This document shows positions 27,400 through 49,728 of a stretch of 64,000 nt of DNA, piece after piece (within the stretch, counting starts at the first letter, position 1; each line of letters opens with the position of its first letter). The translations under genes and the position numbers were made by a program. Where the stretch lies: assembly GCA_012514635.1 (NCBI GenBank), contig JAAYZX010000043.1:1-64000 (forward strand). Direction: 5' to 3'. The DNA is from Actinomycetota bacterium. Its GTDB lineage: Bacteria; Actinomycetota; Thermoleophilia; RBG-16-64-13. The notes below the pieces were generated by a model. It saw only the letters and a list, made by a program, of their open reading frames with translations. It did no database searches and had not been told where the DNA came from.

Positions 27400-28344
27400 T
27401 TATCGGTCCAACCGATACAGACCGGCCGCCCGAGCAGCCTCTGCGGCCTCTCGACACTCCCGTATGGTCGGCCGCCTGTCCAGCCCTGTATAGCGCCCGG
27501 CCAAGCCCGCCGGACGGTATTGGTTCATCACGTTCACGTAAGTCCCGGGCAACAACTCTTGCGCCAGAAAATCCATCACTTCTTTGGTGCCTGCCAAACC
27601 GCCGGGCAGAACGAGATGACGCACCAGCAACCCCCGAACAGCCACGCCACGAGTATCCATGAGCAGATCGCCGACCTGACGATACATCTCGCGGAGTGCG
27701 CCACGGTTGAAGGCCACGTAGTCGCGTACACCCGACAGGTTCGCCGCCGTATCTTCGTCGGCGTATTTGGCATCCGGCATGTAGATGTCCACCACGTCGT
27801 CGAGAAGCTTCAGTGTCTCCACGGTATCGTATCCACCGGTGTTGTAGACCAAGGGTAGCGTCAATCCCGCAGAAGCCGCCACATCCAGCGCTTCCAGGAT
27901 CTGCGGCACTACGTGGCTGGGAGACACCAGATTGATGTTCTCACATCCAATTCTCTGCAGCCTGAGCATGATGGTGGCAATCTCTTTGGGACCGAGCTCG
28001 TCGCCGGCGTCCTGGTGGCTGATGTCCCAGTTCTGGCAGTAAACGCAGTCGAGATTGCAGCGGGAGAAGAAGATGGCACCGGACCCACCTTGACCTACTA
28101 GAGGAGCCTCTTCTCCGTAATGTGGGCCAAAACTCGCCACCCGCGCATAACGCCCGGTTCGACAGAACCCCAGTTCTTTTCCGGTTGCCCGACTGAGTCG
28201 GTCCACGCCGCACCGACGCGGACACACGCGGCACGACGCCAGATCGGCCACGGCCGTCTCCGCCCGTCGCCGCAGCTCACCCGATCGGTGAAGCGCCACA
28301 TAAGAAGCCACCGTCCGATCTCCCGTACTTCTATCCACTGCCAT
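27400..28344 (-). CDS. Radical SAM protein, PflA-like
   Basis: A 314-residue protein with the radical SAM cluster motif C-x3-C-x2-C in CNLDCVYCQNWD, and an N-terminal Cys-rich element (CRVCPRRCGVDR) typical of the putative pyruvate-formate-lyase-activase-like group. NLVSPSHVVPQILEAL and YNTGGYDTVE are further family signatures. It would cleave S-adenosylmethionine to make a 5'-deoxyadenosyl radical; the target is unknown. The ATG at 28344 overlaps the stop of the upstream kinase gene. A 10-base direct repeat (CCATCAACTG twice) sits at the junction. Confidence 0.87.
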   Translation of the reverse strand: MAVDRSTGDRTVASYVALHRSGELRRRAETAVADLASCRVCPRRCGVDRLSRATGKELGFCRTGRYARVASFGPHYGEEAPLVGQGGSGAIFFSRCNLDCVYCQNWDISHQDAGDELGPKEIATIMLRLQRIGCENINLVSPSHVVPQILEALDVAASAGLTLPLVYNTGGYDTVETLKLLDDVVDIYMPDAKYADEDTAANLSGVRDYVAFNRGALREMYRQVGDLLMDTRGVAVRGLLVRHLVLPGGLAGTKEVMDFLAQELLPGTYVNVMNQYRPAGLAGRYTGLDRRPTIRECREAAEAARAAGLYRLDR

Positions 28345-30122
28345 CAACTGCCATCAACTGCGGAATGCGGAATGCGCAGCCGTTCCACGGCTTCGTAGGC
28401 ACAGTCGTCCGGAGGCTGCGAACAATCGATTCTTATGATCCGCAGGCCCTCATCTGCGATCACGGGCTCGTAGGCATCCCGTTGTGCGGCAAACAACTCC
28501 CACCTTCCATCGGACGCCTCTCCAACCTGCGTCATGCGCGCGTCCAGCCGCGCACGCACCACGTCCTCCGGGCACACGCACTCTACAAAATGGACGTCGG
28601 CTCCGGTGTTCAGCGCCACAGCCACCGCCCGTTCTCGATCCGCCCGCCTGCTCCACGACGCATCAATGATCACGGACCGCCCCTCCCGCAACGCCGCGAT
28701 AGAGCGGTCGAGTGAGGCTGCATAAGTGCGTTCGGTCATGTCCCGACTATAGAGACCGGAACCAAAGTCATCATAGCAACGCATGTCTTCCGGGATCCTC
28801 GCGAGTTGCTTGCGCATCACATCTGTGCGGACGACTTCAGCCCCAAGCGGATCCGCAATCGCCGCCGCAAGCGTACTCTTACCCGTTCCCATCAAGCCGC
28901 CCACCAGCACCATTGTGGGTTGCTCGAATCGAGCAGCATATCGGTAGGCAAGGGCGAAGTACCGTCCGGCAATACGCCGCGCCTCCTCCCTGTCTTCGGG
29001 CACGATGGCCACATCGTCCAACCGAAAACTAATTACTTTGCCACGCACATAGGCTCGATAACAGGCAAAAAAGCTGAGCAGTTCCTGTACTCCCTTGTCA
29101 CCCGAAGCCTCTACATAGGCATCCACGAAGTCTTCGGCAAGGTCGGTGTAACCGTTGAAATCCAGATCCATGTACAAGAAGGCCACTTCGCACGCGACGT
29201 CCGAATACCGAAACCGTTGGTTGAACTCTATGCAGTCGAAGATAGTGATGCCGTCATCGCCGCCGGCCAAGCAAATGTGTTCCAGATGCAGGTCTCCGTG
29301 GCAATCGCGTACACGTCCGGCCCGCACACGATTTTCCAAAAAGCTTATATGCCGGGCGAAAAAGTCCCTGTCGTATGCGCGAATGAAACTGAACATACGT
29401 TTTGGGATAGTTATGTTTCGATATTTTTTTGTCTGAATGAAATTTTCCGTATTATTATGTTGGATGGATGCCACACCGCCGATCTGATCCACCTCACCGC
29501 CCGTCTCCGCCTCTCTGTGGAAACGGGCCACCTTCCGCGCGATGGCGTCCATCGTCTCCGGCCCCACCCTCCCCATCGAAAGCAGGTGTTTCAGCATGCG
29601 CTCTTCAGGCAGTCGGCGCATCTTAAGAGCGTAATCCATCACCCGCGTAGCATTCGACCCGATAGCGCTAGGGACGGCAGGCCTGAGCTCGGCAGTCTCA
29701 GTGACCGACACTTCCTCGGCAGCCTCGGCGACTCCGACGGCGGCTTTAGCAGTAGCCTCAGCGAGCCCAGCGGCGGCCCCGACGGCTTCGGAAGCCGCTC
29801 CCGATACAGGTGCCGCCGACAGCGGCTCCCCCAAAATCAAATCTCCGCTAAGTGTCTCGTGTATGGGGTGCACGGCAATATACGTATCGGGTGCCAACCG
29901 ACGGTTCAAGCGCAATTCTTCCAGACAGTAATGACGCCGTAAATCCAGCGTGGTGAAATTGAGGAACCCAAAATCCACCGGCTTCTTCACTTTGTAGACC
30001 AGTTCTCCCGCTAAAAAAATGTAGGAGATATGGGTCTGAATGAGCTTGATGTCCGCCGCGGGATGGGGATAGAAACTGGGATCCATCATGGCAGAGACTA
30101 ATTGTGGATGGGTGTCACTCAT
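28344..30122 (-). CDS. Aminoglycoside-phosphotransferase-like/P-loop kinase fusion
   Basis: A 592-residue two-domain protein. The first ~340 residues resemble an APH/choline-kinase fold (YKVKKPVDFGFLNF, CHGDLHLEHI, IFDCIEFN with catalytic and metal Asp). The last ~180 residues are a small-molecule P-loop kinase with Walker A VLVGGLMGTGKST. The pairing is known from uncharacterised 'AAA family ATPase' proteins; the substrate is unknown. An Ala-rich insertion of about 50 residues (SGAASEAVGAAAGLAEAT...) interrupts the APH domain after the start of its N-lobe. Start and stop overlap both neighbours by about 4 bp. Confidence 0.8.
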   Translation of the reverse strand: MSDTHPQLVSAMMDPSFYPHPAADIKLIQTHISYIFLAGELVYKVKKPVDFGFLNFTTLDLRRHYCLEELRLNRRLAPDTYIAVHPIHETLSGDLILGEPLSAAPVSGAASEAVGAAAGLAEATAKAAVGVAEAAEEVSVTETAELRPAVPSAIGSNATRVMDYALKMRRLPEERMLKHLLSMGRVGPETMDAIARKVARFHREAETGGEVDQIGGVASIQHNNTENFIQTKKYRNITIPKRMFSFIRAYDRDFFARHISFLENRVRAGRVRDCHGDLHLEHICLAGGDDGITIFDCIEFNQRFRYSDVACEVAFLYMDLDFNGYTDLAEDFVDAYVEASGDKGVQELLSFFACYRAYVRGKVISFRLDDVAIVPEDREEARRIAGRYFALAYRYAARFEQPTMVLVGGLMGTGKSTLAAAIADPLGAEVVRTDVMRKQLARIPEDMRCYDDFGSGLYSRDMTERTYAASLDRSIAALREGRSVIIDASWSRRADRERAVAVALNTGADVHFVECVCPEDVVRARLDARMTQVGEASDGRWELFAAQRDAYEPVIADEGLRIIRIDCSQPPDDCAYEAVERLRIPHSAVDGS

Positions 30123-31357
30123 GATCTACCCCCCGCGCGGAGCTCTGCAACCACTCGTTTGAGATTGAGCACCCTCGTGGTCAGTAAGGTGTCGGCGCGC
30201 ACCAGCCGCGCCGCAAACAGGACGAACAGGTAAGCCACCACTACCAGAATCACCAGCCCTACGGCCAGCTCCCAAAATGCCACGCCACTCGCAGCAAGAC
30301 GCGTAGGCATAGTCACAATCGATGTGAAAGGGAAGAGGCTTAGAAAAACGGCCAGGCCTCCGTTGGGGTTACCGACAATACTGGAGCTCATCAGTAAAGG
30401 CACCATCAATGGTGCAATGGCGACAAACACGAATTGATTGCCCTCTCGCGTCCCAGGCGCCAAAGCACCGAGCGCTCCCAACAGGGCTGCGAATAGCAGA
30501 TATCCCACAACAAAATACGCCAGACTCCACAAAACGAAGCCGGCCGGCAGCGAGCGCGTGAATCCCACCTCTGCCAGACGCGGCGCCGCCCACCGCAGTG
30601 CAGCCAGACCGCCCCCCAACCAGATCGCCATCTGTATCAGAGCAATCCCTGCCAGACCCAAGATCTTTCCGGCCATGAGCTCCCGAGGCTTCACACTTAA
30701 CAACAGCATCTCTACCGTACGCGTCTCCTTCTCCCGTGCCACACTCTGCAGCATGTAGCTGCTGCTCATGATGACTACGAAGTAAAAGGCCATGAGCACA
30801 ATGTGCGGAATGATCAACGCCCACTCATTGTCAATCTCCCCATCGCCCGAGCCGGAAGTGGACTCTTTGGTCACCTGAGTAAGCGGTGCCATGAGCAACC
30901 CGGCTCTTGATGAGTCGCCCAGTAGGTTGCTGTTGAGCGTGTACGCAAGCATTGGAGGAAAATCGAAGGAGTCAACAGGACGAAACTTGTCCGCTACCAT
31001 AGTGACGACTCCTCCACTCACATAGTCAACCGGGATGATTGCAAACCGCTCGATGGCGCCCTGTAAAACAGCAGCACGAGCTTCGTTCTCCGTTGAGAAT
31101 GCCATCAGAGTGTGCTCATCGATACCGGGGGGTAGAGTCTCGATAATCCCTGAGTGATCCACATATCCAAGCGGAGGCGTCTCTCCAGGAACGGGTATGA
31201 AGTGATCGGTACCCGTGGCAGCATTCCACCCCATAAGCTGAGACCCAACCATCAGACCCACCAGAACCAAGGGGAAGAGGATGGTTGTGAACCAGAACGA
31301 GCGTTTGCCGACGGTAGACCGGAACTCGTTCTTAAGCACAAGCCAGATGCGCCTCAT
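30119..31357 (-). CDS. ABC-2 type permease (NatB-like)
   Basis: A 412-residue membrane protein: one N-terminal helix (SFWFTTILFPLVLVGLMVG), a ~150-residue extracytoplasmic domain, then five helices including LMAFYFVVIMSSSYMLQSVAREKETRTVEMLL, the conserved cytoplasmic loop of NatB-type exporters. With its partner permease it should form the channel of an Na+- or drug-efflux-type ABC exporter. The matching ATPase gene is interrupted. It overlaps the next gene by 4 bp. Confidence 0.88.
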   Translation of the reverse strand: MRRIWLVLKNEFRSTVGKRSFWFTTILFPLVLVGLMVGSQLMGWNAATGTDHFIPVPGETPPLGYVDHSGIIETLPPGIDEHTLMAFSTENEARAAVLQGAIERFAIIPVDYVSGGVVTMVADKFRPVDSFDFPPMLAYTLNSNLLGDSSRAGLLMAPLTQVTKESTSGSGDGEIDNEWALIIPHIVLMAFYFVVIMSSSYMLQSVAREKETRTVEMLLLSVKPRELMAGKILGLAGIALIQMAIWLGGGLAALRWAAPRLAEVGFTRSLPAGFVLWSLAYFVVGYLLFAALLGALGALAPGTREGNQFVFVAIAPLMVPLLMSSSIVGNPNGGLAVFLSLFPFTSIVTMPTRLAASGVAFWELAVGLVILVVVAYLFVLFAARLVRADTLLTTRVLNLKRVVAELRAGGRS

Positions 31358-31366
31358 AAGAGCACC

Positions 31367-32590
31367 TCACGCATTCCGGGATCGAACGGCTTCCAGAAGA
31401 CCGCCGAACTTCATGTGTTGACCGTACCGCAACATGCCGCGTCGGAAAATACGCGGCGCTATCAGCAACGCGCCCACAGCCGAGCCCGAGACAAGCAACC
31501 AAGCCACCACAATCTGCCACCAAGGGATCACAGTCGCACCCCAGCGCAGTGCGATGGTGGCAAGCGAAGTAAGCGGAAAGAGACTCAAAGCCACCAACAC
31601 AGGGCTGTCCGGTGACCCCATGATCAGACCAAAGAAGAAAAAGGGCAACCAGAAGAACAATTGCAAAACGCCCGCAATTTGCTGTCCCTGCCTAAGGTCG
31701 GTAACCGCCGCCCCTACTGAGGTGATAATTCCGGCCTCCAACACAAACGACGGCAGGAAGAACAGGACAGAGACGCCGATGAACCCCCACGGCACCTGTG
31801 CATCCTTCAGCAAGGGGGTGGCCTGTGCGGCTGCAATCAATGCCACAGCGCCCACCACCAGCCAAATTCCCACTTGGGTCAGCGATACCACAATCAGGCC
31901 CATGGACTTCCCTACCACCAGCTGCTCAGCGGAGAGGGAAGTAGTCATGATCTCCATGGTGCGATTCTCTTTCTCATCCGTGACGGCCTGAAGGAGATAG
32001 CCTGCAGAAGACATCACAGCTAATACAAAAAACAGGGCTACTGCCACAGGGAAGATCAGCTCAAGCAGGCCACCCGTCTCGCTCTCCACGCGACCATCGG
32101 TGGTTTGAAACACAAGATCACCCGGACCGTCTAGGACCCGTTCCTGTATCTGTGGCGACACCTCCGCCGCCAATTGCGGCCTGATGAGTGCGCTGAACGC
32201 ACTCTCCACACGCGCAGAAGGAGCTTGTTCGTTGTAAAGAAGGGTCACCTTGCCGGTTTGGAGATAGTCGACGGCGAGAATGTAGACGGCTTGGACCTCC
32301 TCTGCTTTCAACGCAGCTTCCGCCGACACCCGATCAGGATAAGGTCGCATGACCGGCTCTCCTGTAGCGACGGTGGTCTGGTCGACCGGAGGCACGGGGA
32401 CAGAAGCCAGCACACCGCTGCCGTCTACAAAGCCCACCTGACTCTCGGCTCCGGTACGTGAGCTCACAAGCAAGATCACAACCACCACCGCTACAATCAA
32501 AAGGGGGATTGCCAAAGTCGCAAGGAGAAAAGAGCGACGTTTCACCGCAGTGAGATACTCGTAGCGGGCTACCAACCAGAGCTTATGCAT
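31367..32590 (-). CDS. ABC-2 type permease (NatB-like)
   Basis: A 407-residue paralogue of the neighbouring permease with the same layout: an N-terminal helix (SFLLATLAIPLLIVAVVVVILL), an extracytoplasmic domain, then a bundle with MSSAGYLLQAVTDEKENRTMEIM. The two permeases probably make a heterodimer. It lies 30 bp after the ATPase gene and 9 bp before the second permease, consistent with one operon. Confidence 0.88.
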   Translation of the reverse strand: MHKLWLVARYEYLTAVKRRSFLLATLAIPLLIVAVVVVILLVSSRTGAESQVGFVDGSGVLASVPVPPVDQTTVATGEPVMRPYPDRVSAEAALKAEEVQAVYILAVDYLQTGKVTLLYNEQAPSARVESAFSALIRPQLAAEVSPQIQERVLDGPGDLVFQTTDGRVESETGGLLELIFPVAVALFFVLAVMSSAGYLLQAVTDEKENRTMEIMTTSLSAEQLVVGKSMGLIVVSLTQVGIWLVVGAVALIAAAQATPLLKDAQVPWGFIGVSVLFFLPSFVLEAGIITSVGAAVTDLRQGQQIAGVLQLFFWLPFFFFGLIMGSPDSPVLVALSLFPLTSLATIALRWGATVIPWWQIVVAWLLVSGSAVGALLIAPRIFRRGMLRYGQHMKFGGLLEAVRSRNA

Positions 32591-32620
32591 ACGCCGCTTC
32601 TCGGCCGTACGAACAAAGGG

Positions 32621-33700
32621 TCATAATCTCGATCTGCCGCGACCGGATTCGAAACGCTCCATAAGTGAGCGATCGAGCTGAGATAAATCCTCTTCCTCAT
32701 GAAGCGATGCTTCCGCACCGTCCGAATCGCCCTGAGAAGTCTCAGATTGTACGTATACCGGAAAACCGCGTAGCTGAGCCACTGTACCCTCGTCAACGTA
32801 CTCTCCACCTTCAGTTACCACCTTGATGAAGATATCGTCCAGCGACGGCTCCGCTATCTCGAACCGTTCGATACGCACGTCTCCACGGGCAATGAGGGCG
32901 CGCAGCACTTCTTGGGGGTTGGCTCCAGTGGCAAGGGACATGCGCCACTCGCCATTCTGCTCCCGTACATCCAGCACTCCAGGCAATCCCTGAAAATCCC
33001 CCCGCCCTACAACTGAAATAGCGTTGCCGGCGAACCTCCGCCGTATGCCGTCGACATCGCCATAGAGAACGGTTCGCCCGTTGTCGATGAGAGCGATGCG
33101 CCCGCAAAGCGCCTCCACTTGGTACATCTGGTGGGTGGACATGATGACCGTACAGCCGGCCTGACGAAACTCTTCAATCATGTCCTTCACCAACCGCGTG
33201 TTAACGGGATCCAACCCCGCAAACGGTTCGTCGATCACCAAGACATCGGGCTCGTGAAGCATGGCGGCGATGATCTGGGCCTACTGCTGCATGCCTTTGC
33301 TGAGCTCTTGAACTTTCTTGTTGCGGTGCTCCAATATATCCATCCGTTGCAGCCAGCCGGTGAGTCTTGCCCGCGCATCTTCTTGGCTCATGCCTTTGAG
33401 CGTTGCCAGGTATATCAGGGTGGTATCGAGTCGCTGGTCGCGATAAAGGCCGCGCTCCTCAGGCAGGTAGCCGATGCGATCCAATCTGGCCTGATCAAGA
33501 CTGCCGCCAAGAATACTCACCGACCCGGCATCTGCTTTAAAGATATTCAGCATGACGCGGATGGCGGTGGTTTTGCCTGCACCGTTAGGACCCAGCAGTC
33601 CAAATACTTCGCCCGGGAATACCTCGAAGGATACGTCCTCCACGGCCTTGGTTTCGCCAAACGACTTGCTCACATGCGACACCACCACCGTGGGTTCCAT
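32621..33700 (-). pseudogene. ABC exporter ATPase (NatA-like) with an in-frame amber codon
   Basis: The gene starts at 33700 (MEPTVVVSHVSKSFGE) with Walker A GPNGAGKTT and a signature LSKGMQQ, then meets TAG at 33283-33281. The same frame continues without any shift as AQIIAAM and DVLVIDEPFAGLDP (Walker B), through a D-loop and C-terminal region to 32621. Relatives have Lys at this position (S-K-G-x-x-Q-K), so a single AAG-to-TAG change explains it. TAG is an ordinary stop in this genome (for example in atpA). The two pieces lack either Walker B or Walker A and should be inactive unless the codon is read through or is a sequencing error. The downstream permeases are intact. Confidence 0.88.
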
Positions 33701-42688: not shown

Positions 42689-44542
<1,854 letters not shown>

Positions 44543-44550
<8 letters not shown>

Positions 44551-45088
44551 GAATTCACAGATCCCGGCGCCGGATGAGTCCCAACCCAAAGAAGGCCGGG
44601 CGCCCGCCTCCGGCGGGCCGCCTGATGCCGGCGTGTCGCCCACGTCGGGGGAGCCGCCTATGTCCGGAGTGCCGCCGGCGGCCTGGGACCTACCGGAGCA
44701 GACTTTGAAGGAGTCGGAGCTGTCTGGACAGGACGACGCCTTTCGTCGCAAAGTCAGCTCCAAGCAGGCACGCAAGATGGTGCGCCGTCGCGAAGGAGAG
44801 GACGGTATCTGGTTCAGCCTCTCTATGTACGGCATCATCGGATGGTCGGTGGCCGTACCTACCATGCTGGGTGTGTTGTTCGGCTATTGGATAGACCGCG
44901 CGTGGCCCGGGCGCATCTCGTGGACACTGACCCTCATGGTGATAGGCGTATGCCTGGGCTGCCTGAACGCTTGGTACTGGGTGCAGCGCCAAAGGAGAAG
45001 CATCGAGGAGCGCGAGCGGCAACTCAAAGAGCAGCAGCGCGCGCTTGAAGAGGAAGCCGACCGTCAAAGCCGCAAAGGCAAAGGCTAG
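44543..45088 (+). CDS. atpQ: AtpQ/AtpI-like two-helix membrane protein of the N-ATPase operon
   Basis: A 181-residue protein with two membrane helices at ~94-115 and ~125-145 (GWSVAVPTMLGVLFGYWIDRAWPG), as in AtpI/AtpQ assembly proteins. The position between atpC and atpR matches atpQ of N-ATPase operons. The first ~90 residues are unusual: a Pro/Gly/Ser-rich stretch with repeated GGPPDAG/GEPPMSG units, then a charged segment. The C-terminus is a Glu/Arg/Gln-rich coiled-coil-like helix. GTG start with GCAAGGTGAG upstream. Confidence 0.85.
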
Positions 45089-45102
45089 GGGGATCGTGAG
45101 GC

Positions 45103-45387
45103 GTGGCCGTACAAGAGATACCTTGGCTGCTGTTGACCTTTGTCGCCGGCGCGGCGCTGGCCGCCATTCATTTCACGGGTCTGTGGTTGACGGTCAAACG
45201 CCTACCAGGCGCCAAGCGCCCCGGCGCCCTAGCCTTGCTGAGCCACTTTGGTCGACTGGTGCTGACTTTGGCCGGGTTCGTGGTGGTGGCATGGGGCGGC
45301 CATTGGCTGCGGATCGTCGCGGCTCTCGTTGGTTTTGTTGTCTGCAGAGCCGCCCTCACCCATATCTTAGGCCCGCGCATGTCGTGA
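45103..45387 (+). CDS. atpR: AtpR-like three-helix membrane protein of the N-ATPase operon
   Basis: A 94-residue, very hydrophobic protein with three predicted helices (IPWLLLTFVAGAALAAIHF, LTLAGFVVVAWGGHWL, ALVGFVVC). The Arg in HFGRLVLTLAG begins the second helix; AtpR proteins have a conserved membrane-embedded Arg proposed to contact the c-subunit Glu. The gene is diagnostic of N-ATPases. GTG start. Confidence 0.83.
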   Translation: MAVQEIPWLLLTFVAGAALAAIHFTGLWLTVKRLPGAKRPGALALLSHFGRLVLTLAGFVVVAWGGHWLRIVAALVGFVVCRAALTHILGPRMS

Positions 45388-45403
45388 AGGAGGCGTGAAA
45401 CGG

Positions 45404-46087
45404 ATGAACGGCGGGGAAATCCACATCACTCCTGACGAAGCGGTTTTCTTCCAAGCCGGCTTCTTCAAACTCAACGCCACCATCGTCATGACGTGGGTGG
45501 TGATGCTGGTGTTGGTGATCGGCTCCATACTCATCACGCGTCGCATCACATCTTCCACCAAGATACCGCGGTGGCAGAACCTGTTGGAAACGCTTCTCAG
45601 TGCGTTGCGCACCCAGATCCGCGAGATCAGCGAGCAGGATCCCGACCCATACGTGCCCTTCGTGGGGACCCTCTTCATATTCATCCTCACATGCAATATT
45701 TTGGCCCCTATCCCCATCTACGAGCCGCCCACGGGCTCGCTCTCACTGACCGCCGCACTGTCGCTCACGGTCTTCTTCGCAGTTCCCATATTTGGGATCC
45801 GTGCGCGAGGATTCGTGGGCTACTTGGGCAACTACACCAAACCCTTCTTTTTCATGGCCCCGCTTCATGCCATCAGCGAGCTTTCCCGCACCGTCTCGCT
45901 GGCCATGCGTCTCTTCGGCAATGTCATGAGTGAAGGGCTGATCGTCGCTTTGCTGTTAAGCATCGTCCCGTTCGTATTACCGGTGGTGATGGAGGCACTG
46001 GGATTGTTGATGGGTACCATCCAAGCCTATATTTTCGCTATCCTCACCACCGTCTACATAGCCGCAGGAACCAGTGGTGGACATTAG
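45404..46087 (+). CDS. atpB: N-type ATP synthase, a subunit
   Basis: A 227-residue membrane subunit, shorter than typical F-type a subunits. The essential stator Arg is in SRTVSLAMRLFGN; the ion channel helices include GTIQAYIFAILTTVYI. The ATG at 45404 lies 11 bases after AAGGAGG, whereas the GTG at 45395 is too close. It should provide the ion half-channels to the c-ring. Confidence 0.93.
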   Translation: MNGGEIHITPDEAVFFQAGFFKLNATIVMTWVVMLVLVIGSILITRRITSSTKIPRWQNLLETLLSALRTQIREISEQDPDPYVPFVGTLFIFILTCNILAPIPIYEPPTGSLSLTAALSLTVFFAVPIFGIRARGFVGYLGNYTKPFFFMAPLHAISELSRTVSLAMRLFGNVMSEGLIVALLLSIVPFVLPVVMEALGLLMGTIQAYIFAILTTVYIAAGTSGGH

Positions 46088-46129
46088 ACCTTTAGGTTCA
46101 GGGAGATTCACCGAAAGGGGGAAGTAAGC

Positions 46130-46399
46130 ATGGATAACCTCGGATGGATTGGCGTCGCTTCACTCCTCGTAGCCGGTCTAACCATTGCGATCGGCACGAT
46201 CGCACCGGCTATGGGGCAGGCCCGCGCCGTGTCCCAGAGCCTCGCCTCGATTGCGCAGCAGCCGGACGAGGCCGGTACCATCTCGCGAACGCTTTTCGTG
46301 GGCCTGGCCTTCATCGAGTCGCTGGCCATCTATTGCTTGGTGATCTCGATCATCATCATCTTCGTTAATCCGTTCTGGTCGGCAGTCAAGGGTGGCTGA
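46130..46399 (+). CDS. atpE: N-type ATP synthase, c subunit with Na+-type ligands
   Basis: An 89-residue hairpin of two membrane helices. Gln30, Glu63, Ser64 and Tyr68 occupy the positions of Gln32, Glu65, Ser66 and Tyr70 in the Ilyobacter tartaricus c subunit, the sodium-binding set. The position of Val63 there is Phe61 here, and Thr67 is Leu65. The polar loop has Q-Q-P-D. A GAAAGGGGG site precedes the ATG. The ligand set predicts Na+ coupling, with the caveat that at least one N-ATPase with related residues has been reported to use protons. Confidence 0.94.
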   Translation: MDNLGWIGVASLLVAGLTIAIGTIAPAMGQARAVSQSLASIAQQPDEAGTISRTLFVGLAFIESLAIYCLVISIIIIFVNPFWSAVKGG

Positions 46400-46462
46400 G
46401 ACGAGGACAGGGCAGAGGCTCGCTAACGAGCGCCGACAGGGACTCCGAGAGGACTAGCTACC

Positions 46463-47242
46463 GTGCTGATTGATTGGTTCACAGTAGTCGCGGAAATCGT
46501 CAATTTCCTGATTCTGCTGTGGTTGCTCAAGCGGTTCCTGTATAAGCCTGTCCTGAACGCGATGGATAAGAGAGAAGCCACCATCGCGTCTCGGGAGAAC
46601 GAGGCCACCACCGCATTGCAGCAAGGCCGCCAGCAACAGGACAAATACGAGGTCCTGCTTAACGAGATCTCCAGCGACCGCGAGGAGATCATGGCGGAAG
46701 CCCACCGAATGTCGGACCAGCGCCGCAAGGAGCTCACGCAGATCGCGGCTGAAGACGTCGCCAACATTGAAGCCCGCTGGAAGGAGAACCTGGAACGACA
46801 ACGCGAGGCATTCGCGCGCAACCTCTCCCAGCGTGCAGGCGACCAGATCTGCTCCATTGCGCGTCTGGCACTAGCCGACCTGGCGGGCCGCGACCTCGAA
46901 CGCCACATCGCCGGCGTGTTCACGGAGCGGCTGCAAACCCTCCCCGATGACAAACGCCGCCGCATTGTCGACACTCTACACAAGTCGAACTACCGTGTCT
47001 CCATCAGCAGTTCGTTCGAACTGGACGAGACTCACCGTTCAGAAATTCGAGACATTCTCAAAAAGCTGGGGGGGCGCGACGTAACAGTCGCCTGGGAAGT
47101 CCATCCTGATGTTATCTGCGGGATCGACCTCCGGGCCCACGATTATAAACTGGCTTTTAGCTTGGGCGACTACCTCGAACGGTTGCGTACCGCTCTCGAG
47201 GACGAGCTGCAGGCCGAGGCCTCGGCACGTGAGGGGGGGTGA
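46463..47242 (+). CDS. atpF: N-type ATP synthase, long b subunit
   Basis: A 259-residue peripheral-stalk subunit: one N-terminal helix (TVVAEIVNFLILLWLLKRFLYKPV), a long charged coiled coil (~35-150), then a C-terminal ~110-residue part (ADLAGRDLERHIAGVFTERL.., ISSSFELDETHRSEIRDILKKLGG) that resembles the delta-subunit C-terminal half. This suggests b has taken over the delta role, as no delta gene is present. GTG start. Confidence 0.92.
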   Translation: MLIDWFTVVAEIVNFLILLWLLKRFLYKPVLNAMDKREATIASRENEATTALQQGRQQQDKYEVLLNEISSDREEIMAEAHRMSDQRRKELTQIAAEDVANIEARWKENLERQREAFARNLSQRAGDQICSIARLALADLAGRDLERHIAGVFTERLQTLPDDKRRRIVDTLHKSNYRVSISSSFELDETHRSEIRDILKKLGGRDVTVAWEVHPDVICGIDLRAHDYKLAFSLGDYLERLRTALEDELQAEASAREGG

Positions 47243-47284
47243 TCCTAACTGAGCGCTGAAACCAATGGCGAGCTGAAGGAAGTC

Positions 47285-48805
47285 ATGGAGGGAGTGCTGT
47301 CTGCGACGGATTCCGTCTTGGAACGTCAACGAGCCGAACTCCGACTCCAGGAAATAGGTACCACCACATACGTCGGCAAGGGCGTGGCTCAGGTATCAGG
47401 ACTGCCGGAGGTGAAGTCGGAGGAGCTGATCAGTTTCCCCGGAGGTCTCTACGGCATGGCCTTCAACCTCGACCCTGATCAGGTAGGCGTCATCTTGCTG
47501 GACAGAAGCGAGAACCTGGCCGCCGGTGTGGAGGTGACGCGCACCATGCGCGTACTGGACGTACCCGTGGGCGGCGCCCTGTTGGGTCGAGTGGTGGACG
47601 GCATAGGACGTCCGTTGGACGGAGCCGGCCCCATCGTGGCCTCGGAACGGCGCCCGGTGGAGCGCCCCGCTCCACCCATCATGTACCGTGACCCGGTGAC
47701 CGTCCCTCTGCAGACCGGTCTCAAGGTGGTGGACGCCGCCATACCCGTCGGCCGCGGCCAACGCGAGCTGATCATCGGTGACCGCCAGACAGGCAAGACC
47801 GCTATAGCAGTAGACACCATCATCAACCAAATCGGCAAGGACGTCATCTGTATCTACTGCGCGGTGGGCCAGCGGGCGGCCAGCGTGGCCAAGGTGATCG
47901 CCGACCTGCACGAACATGAAGCCATGGACCATACCGTAGTCATGGTGGCTGCCGGCGAGGATCCGCCCGGGCTGCAATTCATCACCCCCTACGCCGCCAC
48001 GGCGCTGGGAGAATACTTCATGGAGCAGGGCCGGGACGTATTGGTCATCTACGATGATCTAACCAGCCACGCTCGAGCCTACCGAGAATTATCCCTGCTG
48101 CTACGCCGCCCTCCAGGCCGCGAAGCATTCCCCGGTGACATCTTCTACATTCACTCCCGCCTCCTCGAGCGCTCCACCCATCTCCGTGCCGAGTACGGCG
48201 GGGGGTCGCTGACGGCACTTCCCATTGTGGAGACGGAGGCGCAGAACATGGCGGCCTACATCCCCACCAACCTCATCTCTATCACCGACGGTCAGATATA
48301 CCTATCCCCAGACCTCTTCTCCAAAGGCATTCTGCCGCCGGTCGACGTAGGCCGGTCGGTCTCGCGCGTAGGCGGCAAGGCGCAGCTTTCCGCCTACCGT
48401 TTGGTGGCCGGAGACCTACGATTGGCCTATTCGCAATTCGAGGCCATGGAGACGTTTGCCCGTTTCAGCACGCAGCTCGACTCCGCCACCCAGCGCATGC
48501 TGGATCGAGGTCGGCGTGTACGCGAAGTGCTGAAACAGAATCAGTACTCACCCATGTCCGCTCCTGCTCAGATAGCCACTCTGCTGGCCATCAACAGCGG
48601 CCTCTACGACCGCCTGGAGGTGGAGCAGGTTCTCGAAGCCGAACAGATAGTGGTAGAGACCATCACCAAGGAATGTCCTGACGTCTGTTCCCGTGTCCAA
48701 AGCGGAGTCAAGATGTCGGACGAGGACCGAGAGACCATCCTGCACAAGGCCAAAGCCGCCTTGGCACAGGCCTTCCCCGTCGGCGAGGAAGAGGAAGCCG
48801 CATAG
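47285..48805 (+). CDS. atpA: N-type ATP synthase, alpha subunit
   Basis: A 506-residue F1 alpha. Walker A GDRQTGKT is at 165-172; the [18 protein letters not shown] and [13 protein letters not shown] stretches are family hallmarks, and the arginine finger region [10 protein letters not shown] is present. The start at ATG 47285 has AAGGA upstream; the frame is open 36 bases further to a CTG close to a strong G-rich site, so a longer N-terminus is possible. It ends in TAG, 2 bases before atpG. Confidence 0.94.
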
Positions 48806-48807
48806 CC

Positions 48808-49728
48808 ATGGAGACTGCCGAGCAACTCAAGAAAAAGATTGCCAGCGCGGAGGACCTACGCGATCTGGTCCGGACCATGAAGTTGCTGGCGGTCACAAAT
48901 ATCCGCCGCTTCCAGGAGGCCGTGGAAGCACTGGCCGACTACTACCACAGCATTGAAATGGGTCTGCAGATCGCGCTGCGCCGCGAGGCCACGAGCGGCG
49001 CCATCGATCTGAGTCGTTGGCAGGAGCTTGATCAGTCGCGGGGAGACTTGGGCCTTGTGGTGCTCGGCACAGATCAAGGTCTCTGCGGCCGCTACAACGA
49101 AGTGGTGGTTGACTATAGTCGCGAGGTCATCGAGCAGGAGTTCGGCGGTGAGAGGCCCCGCAGGATCCTCTGTGTGGGACTCAGGCCGGCACTACAATTG
49201 GAGCAGTTGTGGCACGCCGTAGAAGTGACCTTCCCGGTTCCCGGTTTTCCTACGGGCGTTACCCGTGTGGTGCAGGAGATCGTCTTCCAGATTGAGAAGT
49301 GGCAGTCGCTTGACAACATCACCCGCGTAGTAGTGATCCATAACGAACTTGTTCGCGGTGTTTACTATCAACCGGGAATGTACAAGCTGTTGCCACTGGA
49401 CAAGGAGTGGTTCTCCCGGTACGCCAACGAGCCATGGCCCAATCCCCGCGTCATCCCCACTTTTACCATGGATCCGGCTCCGCTGCTGGCCTCGCTGGTG
49501 CGGCAGTATCTCTTCTTCTCCGTCTACCGATCCCAGGTGGAGGCGTTGGCCAGCGAGAATGCCGCCCGCTTCCTCTCCATGCAGACCGCCGAGAAAAACA
49601 TCGAGGACCGCCTGGAAGAGCTGCACATGACGGCAAACCAGCAACGCCAGAACTCCATCACGGAAGAACTGCTGGACATCGTGGCCGGGTACGAGGCTCT
49701 GGGCGGCAGTAAGATGGCAACCGTATGA
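48808..49728 (+). CDS. atpG: N-type ATP synthase, gamma subunit
   Basis: A 306-residue central-stalk subunit with the N-terminal coiled-coil helix (LKKKIASAEDLRDLVRTMKLLAVTNIRRF) and the C-terminal helix ending TEELLDIVAGYEALGG. A Rossmann-like middle domain has LGTDQGLCGRYNE. It is the last gene of the operon and is followed by a terminator. Confidence 0.92.
   Translation: METAEQLKKKIASAEDLRDLVRTMKLLAVTNIRRFQEAVEALADYYHSIEMGLQIALRREATSGAIDLSRWQELDQSRGDLGLVVLGTDQGLCGRYNEVVVDYSREVIEQEFGGERPRRILCVGLRPALQLEQLWHAVEVTFPVPGFPTGVTRVVQEIVFQIEKWQSLDNITRVVVIHNELVRGVYYQPGMYKLLPLDKEWFSRYANEPWPNPRVIPTFTMDPAPLLASLVRQYLFFSVYRSQVEALASENAARFLSMQTAEKNIEDRLEELHMTANQQRQNSITEELLDIVAGYEALGGSKMATV

Follow-up and report, generated by a model that had tools for sequence, protein, structure and literature searches.

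An in-frame amber codon, probably a recent nonsense mutation, in the ATPase gene of an ABC-2 exporter operon of an uncultured Thermoleophilia-like bacterium

The ATPase gene and its operon

A window of 64,000 nucleotides (positions 1 to 64,000 of contig JAAYZX010000043.1) was found to carry on its minus strand a three-gene operon (30119-33700) for an ABC ATPase and two ABC-2 permeases, in which the ATPase gene is interrupted by an amber codon. The features identified at this locus are as follows.

33281-33700, minus strand: N-terminal fragment of the ABC ATPase, 139 amino acids, from Walker A to the signature LSKGMQQ and then TAG (ORF list and ABC_tran match on the read-through protein)
33281-33283, minus strand: in-frame TAG, at a site with Lys (AAG or AAA) in 81 of 81 compared orthologues
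32621-33280, minus strand: C-terminal part of the ABC ATPase in the same frame, with Walker B, the DrrA1-3_C domain, a tail and a TGA end; internal ATG at 33262
31367-32590, minus strand: first ABC-2 permease (PF12698), intact (ORF list, Pfam match, alignable at full length)
30119-31357, minus strand: second ABC-2 permease (PF12698), intact (ORF list, Pfam match, alignable at full length)

The TAG at 33283-33281 (CTA on the plus strand) is the only interruption of the ATPase frame, which extends from 33700 to 32621. Beyond it a further 219 in-frame codons lead to a TGA at 32621-32623, giving a protein of 359 amino acids if the TAG is counted as one residue, with the junction ...QELSKGMQQ(stop)AQIIAAMLHEPDVLVIDEPFAGLDP... 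Comparison of this read-through protein with Pfam revealed an ABC_tran match at residues 21-161, spanning the stop, with a DrrA1-3_C match behind it at residues 214-295. The continuity of the frame is therefore a matter of homology and not of a chance open frame, and the match across the stop bears out an earlier note on this DNA, made from the sequence alone, according to which the frame runs exactly across the TAG with Walker B downstream. The same note had placed the amber codon in the signature motif; the in-frame TAG was confirmed, but its site lies directly after LSKGMQQ and thus outside the core LSxG.

When read through, the protein possesses the features of a NatA/DrrA-type ABC ATPase, namely an ABC_tran domain with Walker A, signature and Walker B, a DrrA1-3_C domain, and adjacent ABC-2 permeases in the form of the two PF12698 proteins. 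The product as translated lacks both Walker B and the C-terminal domain. No finer subfamily name was given to the ATPase, as the NCBIfam subfamily cut-offs were not reached (204.8 bits against drrA, below the cut-off of 312 bits). Both downstream permease genes had been described as intact, with which their alignment along the entire length agrees.

Domain architecture and operon order are the same as those of other NatA/DrrA-type ATPases with two ABC-2 (NatB-type) permeases, a combination common to Thermoleophilia and many Chloroflexi genomes, and the order ATPase-permease-permease is kept in most relatives. In contrast to these ATPases, the internal stop is found in the present copy alone. 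The second permease gene has a four-base overlap with a minus-strand gene (28344-30122) whose product matches an APH-type kinase and bears an AAA_33 ATPase domain at its C-terminus. The closest relatives of the operon were mostly identified in Chloroflexi (Anaerolineae), though the genome groups with Thermoleophilia, in a scan that favours exact peptide matches. Horizontal transfer of the operon is possible on the basis of these matches.

Comparison with orthologues

The ATPase was aligned with orthologues from Thermoleophilia and Chloroflexi, 81 in all. Every one of these encodes Lys at the site of the TAG, with AAG in 51 and AAA in 30, which is the residue that the earlier note had expected. 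The nearest orthologue, which is 72% identical and belongs to another genus of the same family, has AAG at the site, and AAG to TAG is the simplest change, as proposed before; the public record matching this orthologue is a Gaiellales (Thermoleophilia) metagenome-assembled genome. None of the 81 orthologues was found to have an internal stop before its natural C-terminus, and the comparison of this codon in relatives that the earlier note had called for thus returned a Lys codon in each case and TAG in none. Stops flagged in some of the search rows raised the possibility of a conserved stop in relatives; where checked, these proved to be natural C-terminal ends.

Among the 17 genomes of the same family that were searched, six were found to possess a close orthologue (64-72% identical). 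A redundant close copy within the genome itself was also considered and rejected, the next best ABC ATPase of its own among the matches listed being just 36% identical.

The two parts of the gene were found to be equally conserved. Against the nearest orthologue, pN was 0.156 before the stop and 0.159 after it (pS being near-saturated), and the ratio of divergence after the stop to that before it had a median of 1.04 across the 81 comparisons, within the range of intact genes. Besides the stop, the ATPase departs at three of 93 strongly conserved columns, compared with a median of two for all sequences. As both sides of the TAG are equally conserved, selection held the whole gene until very recently. 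Such conservation behind the stop is consistent with either a recent mutation or an error in the consensus; taken alone, it does not indicate readthrough.

Origin of the stop codon

The gene combines a single disabling change with a conserved remainder and intact orthologues, as is characteristic of a recent nonsense pseudogene. With recent single-nonsense pseudogenes and strain-level loss-of-function alleles it shares one stop, the lack of further decay and intact neighbours, and it does not depart from them in any feature tested. These properties suggest that the TAG is probably a real and recent nonsense mutation of the AAG to TAG type in the sampled strain. In its simplest form, this would have been an A to T substitution in the ATPase gene of the three-gene ABC-2 exporter operon. 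One point against such a substitution is that A to T is a transversion, which is rarer than transitions, both as a mutation and as an error.

The main rival explanation is that the TAG is a single-base consensus error, or a base from a minority strain, in a draft assembly of metagenome type, with the gene intact in the organism. This is less likely, though it deserves more weight than any of the readings considered further below. The assembly is fragmented (a genome of 2.34 Mb in 129 contigs), the nearest relatives are metagenome-assembled genomes and, apart from the one base, nothing in the gene points to decay, all of which speaks for an error. Against this, consensus substitutions are rare at usual coverage. 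Furthermore, the genome yielded 47 ABC_tran domains over cut-off, and only the one described here is interrupted, which indicates that the consensus is not generally poor. Recent mutation, sequencing error and functional readthrough had all been offered in the earlier note as readings of this codon; the first two are supported by the present comparison, while the third is disfavoured by the results that follow.

Decoding of TAG in the genome

Readthrough or recoding of the amber codon, by a suppressor tRNA, by pyrrolysine or as programmed readthrough, would yield a full-length ATPase and would account for the exact continuation of the frame and the conservation of its downstream part, features that the gene shares with those of pyrrolysine-containing proteins (e.g. 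MttB) and of amber-recoded genomes. It is nevertheless very improbable. Unlike in those systems, the TAG is not conserved in relatives, release factor 1 (RF1) was identified in the genome over cut-off, and the search for pyrrolysine and suppressor tRNA genes that had been advised returned neither a PylS over cut-off nor an MttB methyltransferase in the genome, nor a CUA anticodon among the 38 tRNA matches examined. A conserved TAG in relatives accompanied by a CUA tRNA was thus sought among the 81 orthologues and these tRNA matches and was not encountered. The single weak PylS match (28.5 bits against a cut-off of 178) was found to be a lysyl-tRNA-synthetase-like (LysS-like) protein, and similar weak matches were present in 13 of 14 control genomes. 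The predicted RNA fold downstream of the TAG was no better than that of shuffled sequences (z -0.07).

The codon is also in ordinary use as a stop. In a mechanical list of candidate ORFs for the window, 17 of 53 terminate in TAG, and the codon ends true genes, as the earlier note had held for TAG elsewhere in the window. One of these is atpB, behind which atpE follows in the same frame; this pair (45395-46399) had the appearance of a second in-frame TAG extension and was rejected as such. As a consequence of this arrangement, general readthrough would fuse two ATP synthase subunits. With TAG retained as a stop and RF1 retained in the genome, the signs of genome-wide reassignment are lacking.

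The assembly does not contain a full tRNA set, since at least tRNA-Tyr was likewise missing from the 38 matches, and failure to find a tRNA-CUA is therefore not proof of its absence. A tRNA whose gene the assembly lacks might decode the TAG to some extent, so that a little full-length ATPase is produced in this lineage only, but this has a slighter chance still. The lack of tRNA-Tyr among these matches also shows that some tRNA genes are missed by the assembly despite an estimated completeness of 98%.

Least credible of all is a split gene whose halves are made separately and work together, with translation restarting at the ATG at 33262, since, although this codon lies 18 bases past the stop and opens an ORF of 213 amino acids, no Shine-Dalgarno-like sequence precedes it (direct reading: GCAGCAGTAGGCCCAGATCATCGCCGCCATG), the gene is split in no relative and the cut falls inside the ATPase domain.

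Predicted consequences of the mutation

If the stop is a recent nonsense mutation, translation would end after residue 139. The truncated ATPase should not hydrolyse ATP, as Walker A remains in it while Walker B and the C-terminal domain are gone, and in the sampled strain the two intact permeases would have no ATPase to power them. That the organism itself carries the TAG base, and that its transporter is inactive, is our inference. The finding is an ordinary one and is of little significance beyond annotation, where an interrupted gene should be recorded, taken neither as two genes nor as evidence of recoding. Should a full-length protein be shown to be made, this would represent amber readthrough in a genome without sign of a decoding system.

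The ATP synthase operon

The ATP synthase operon of the window (42761-49728, plus strand) was found to encode, in order, beta, epsilon, an AtpI-like protein (PF09527), a small ORF for which no Pfam family was matched, a, c, b, alpha and gamma. The b subunit has a partial match to delta (OSCP), and the c subunit contains an E-S-x-x-x-Y stretch. Both this stretch and the order of the operon resemble those of sodium-type N-ATPases. A second ATP synthase a subunit was identified in the genome on contig C4.
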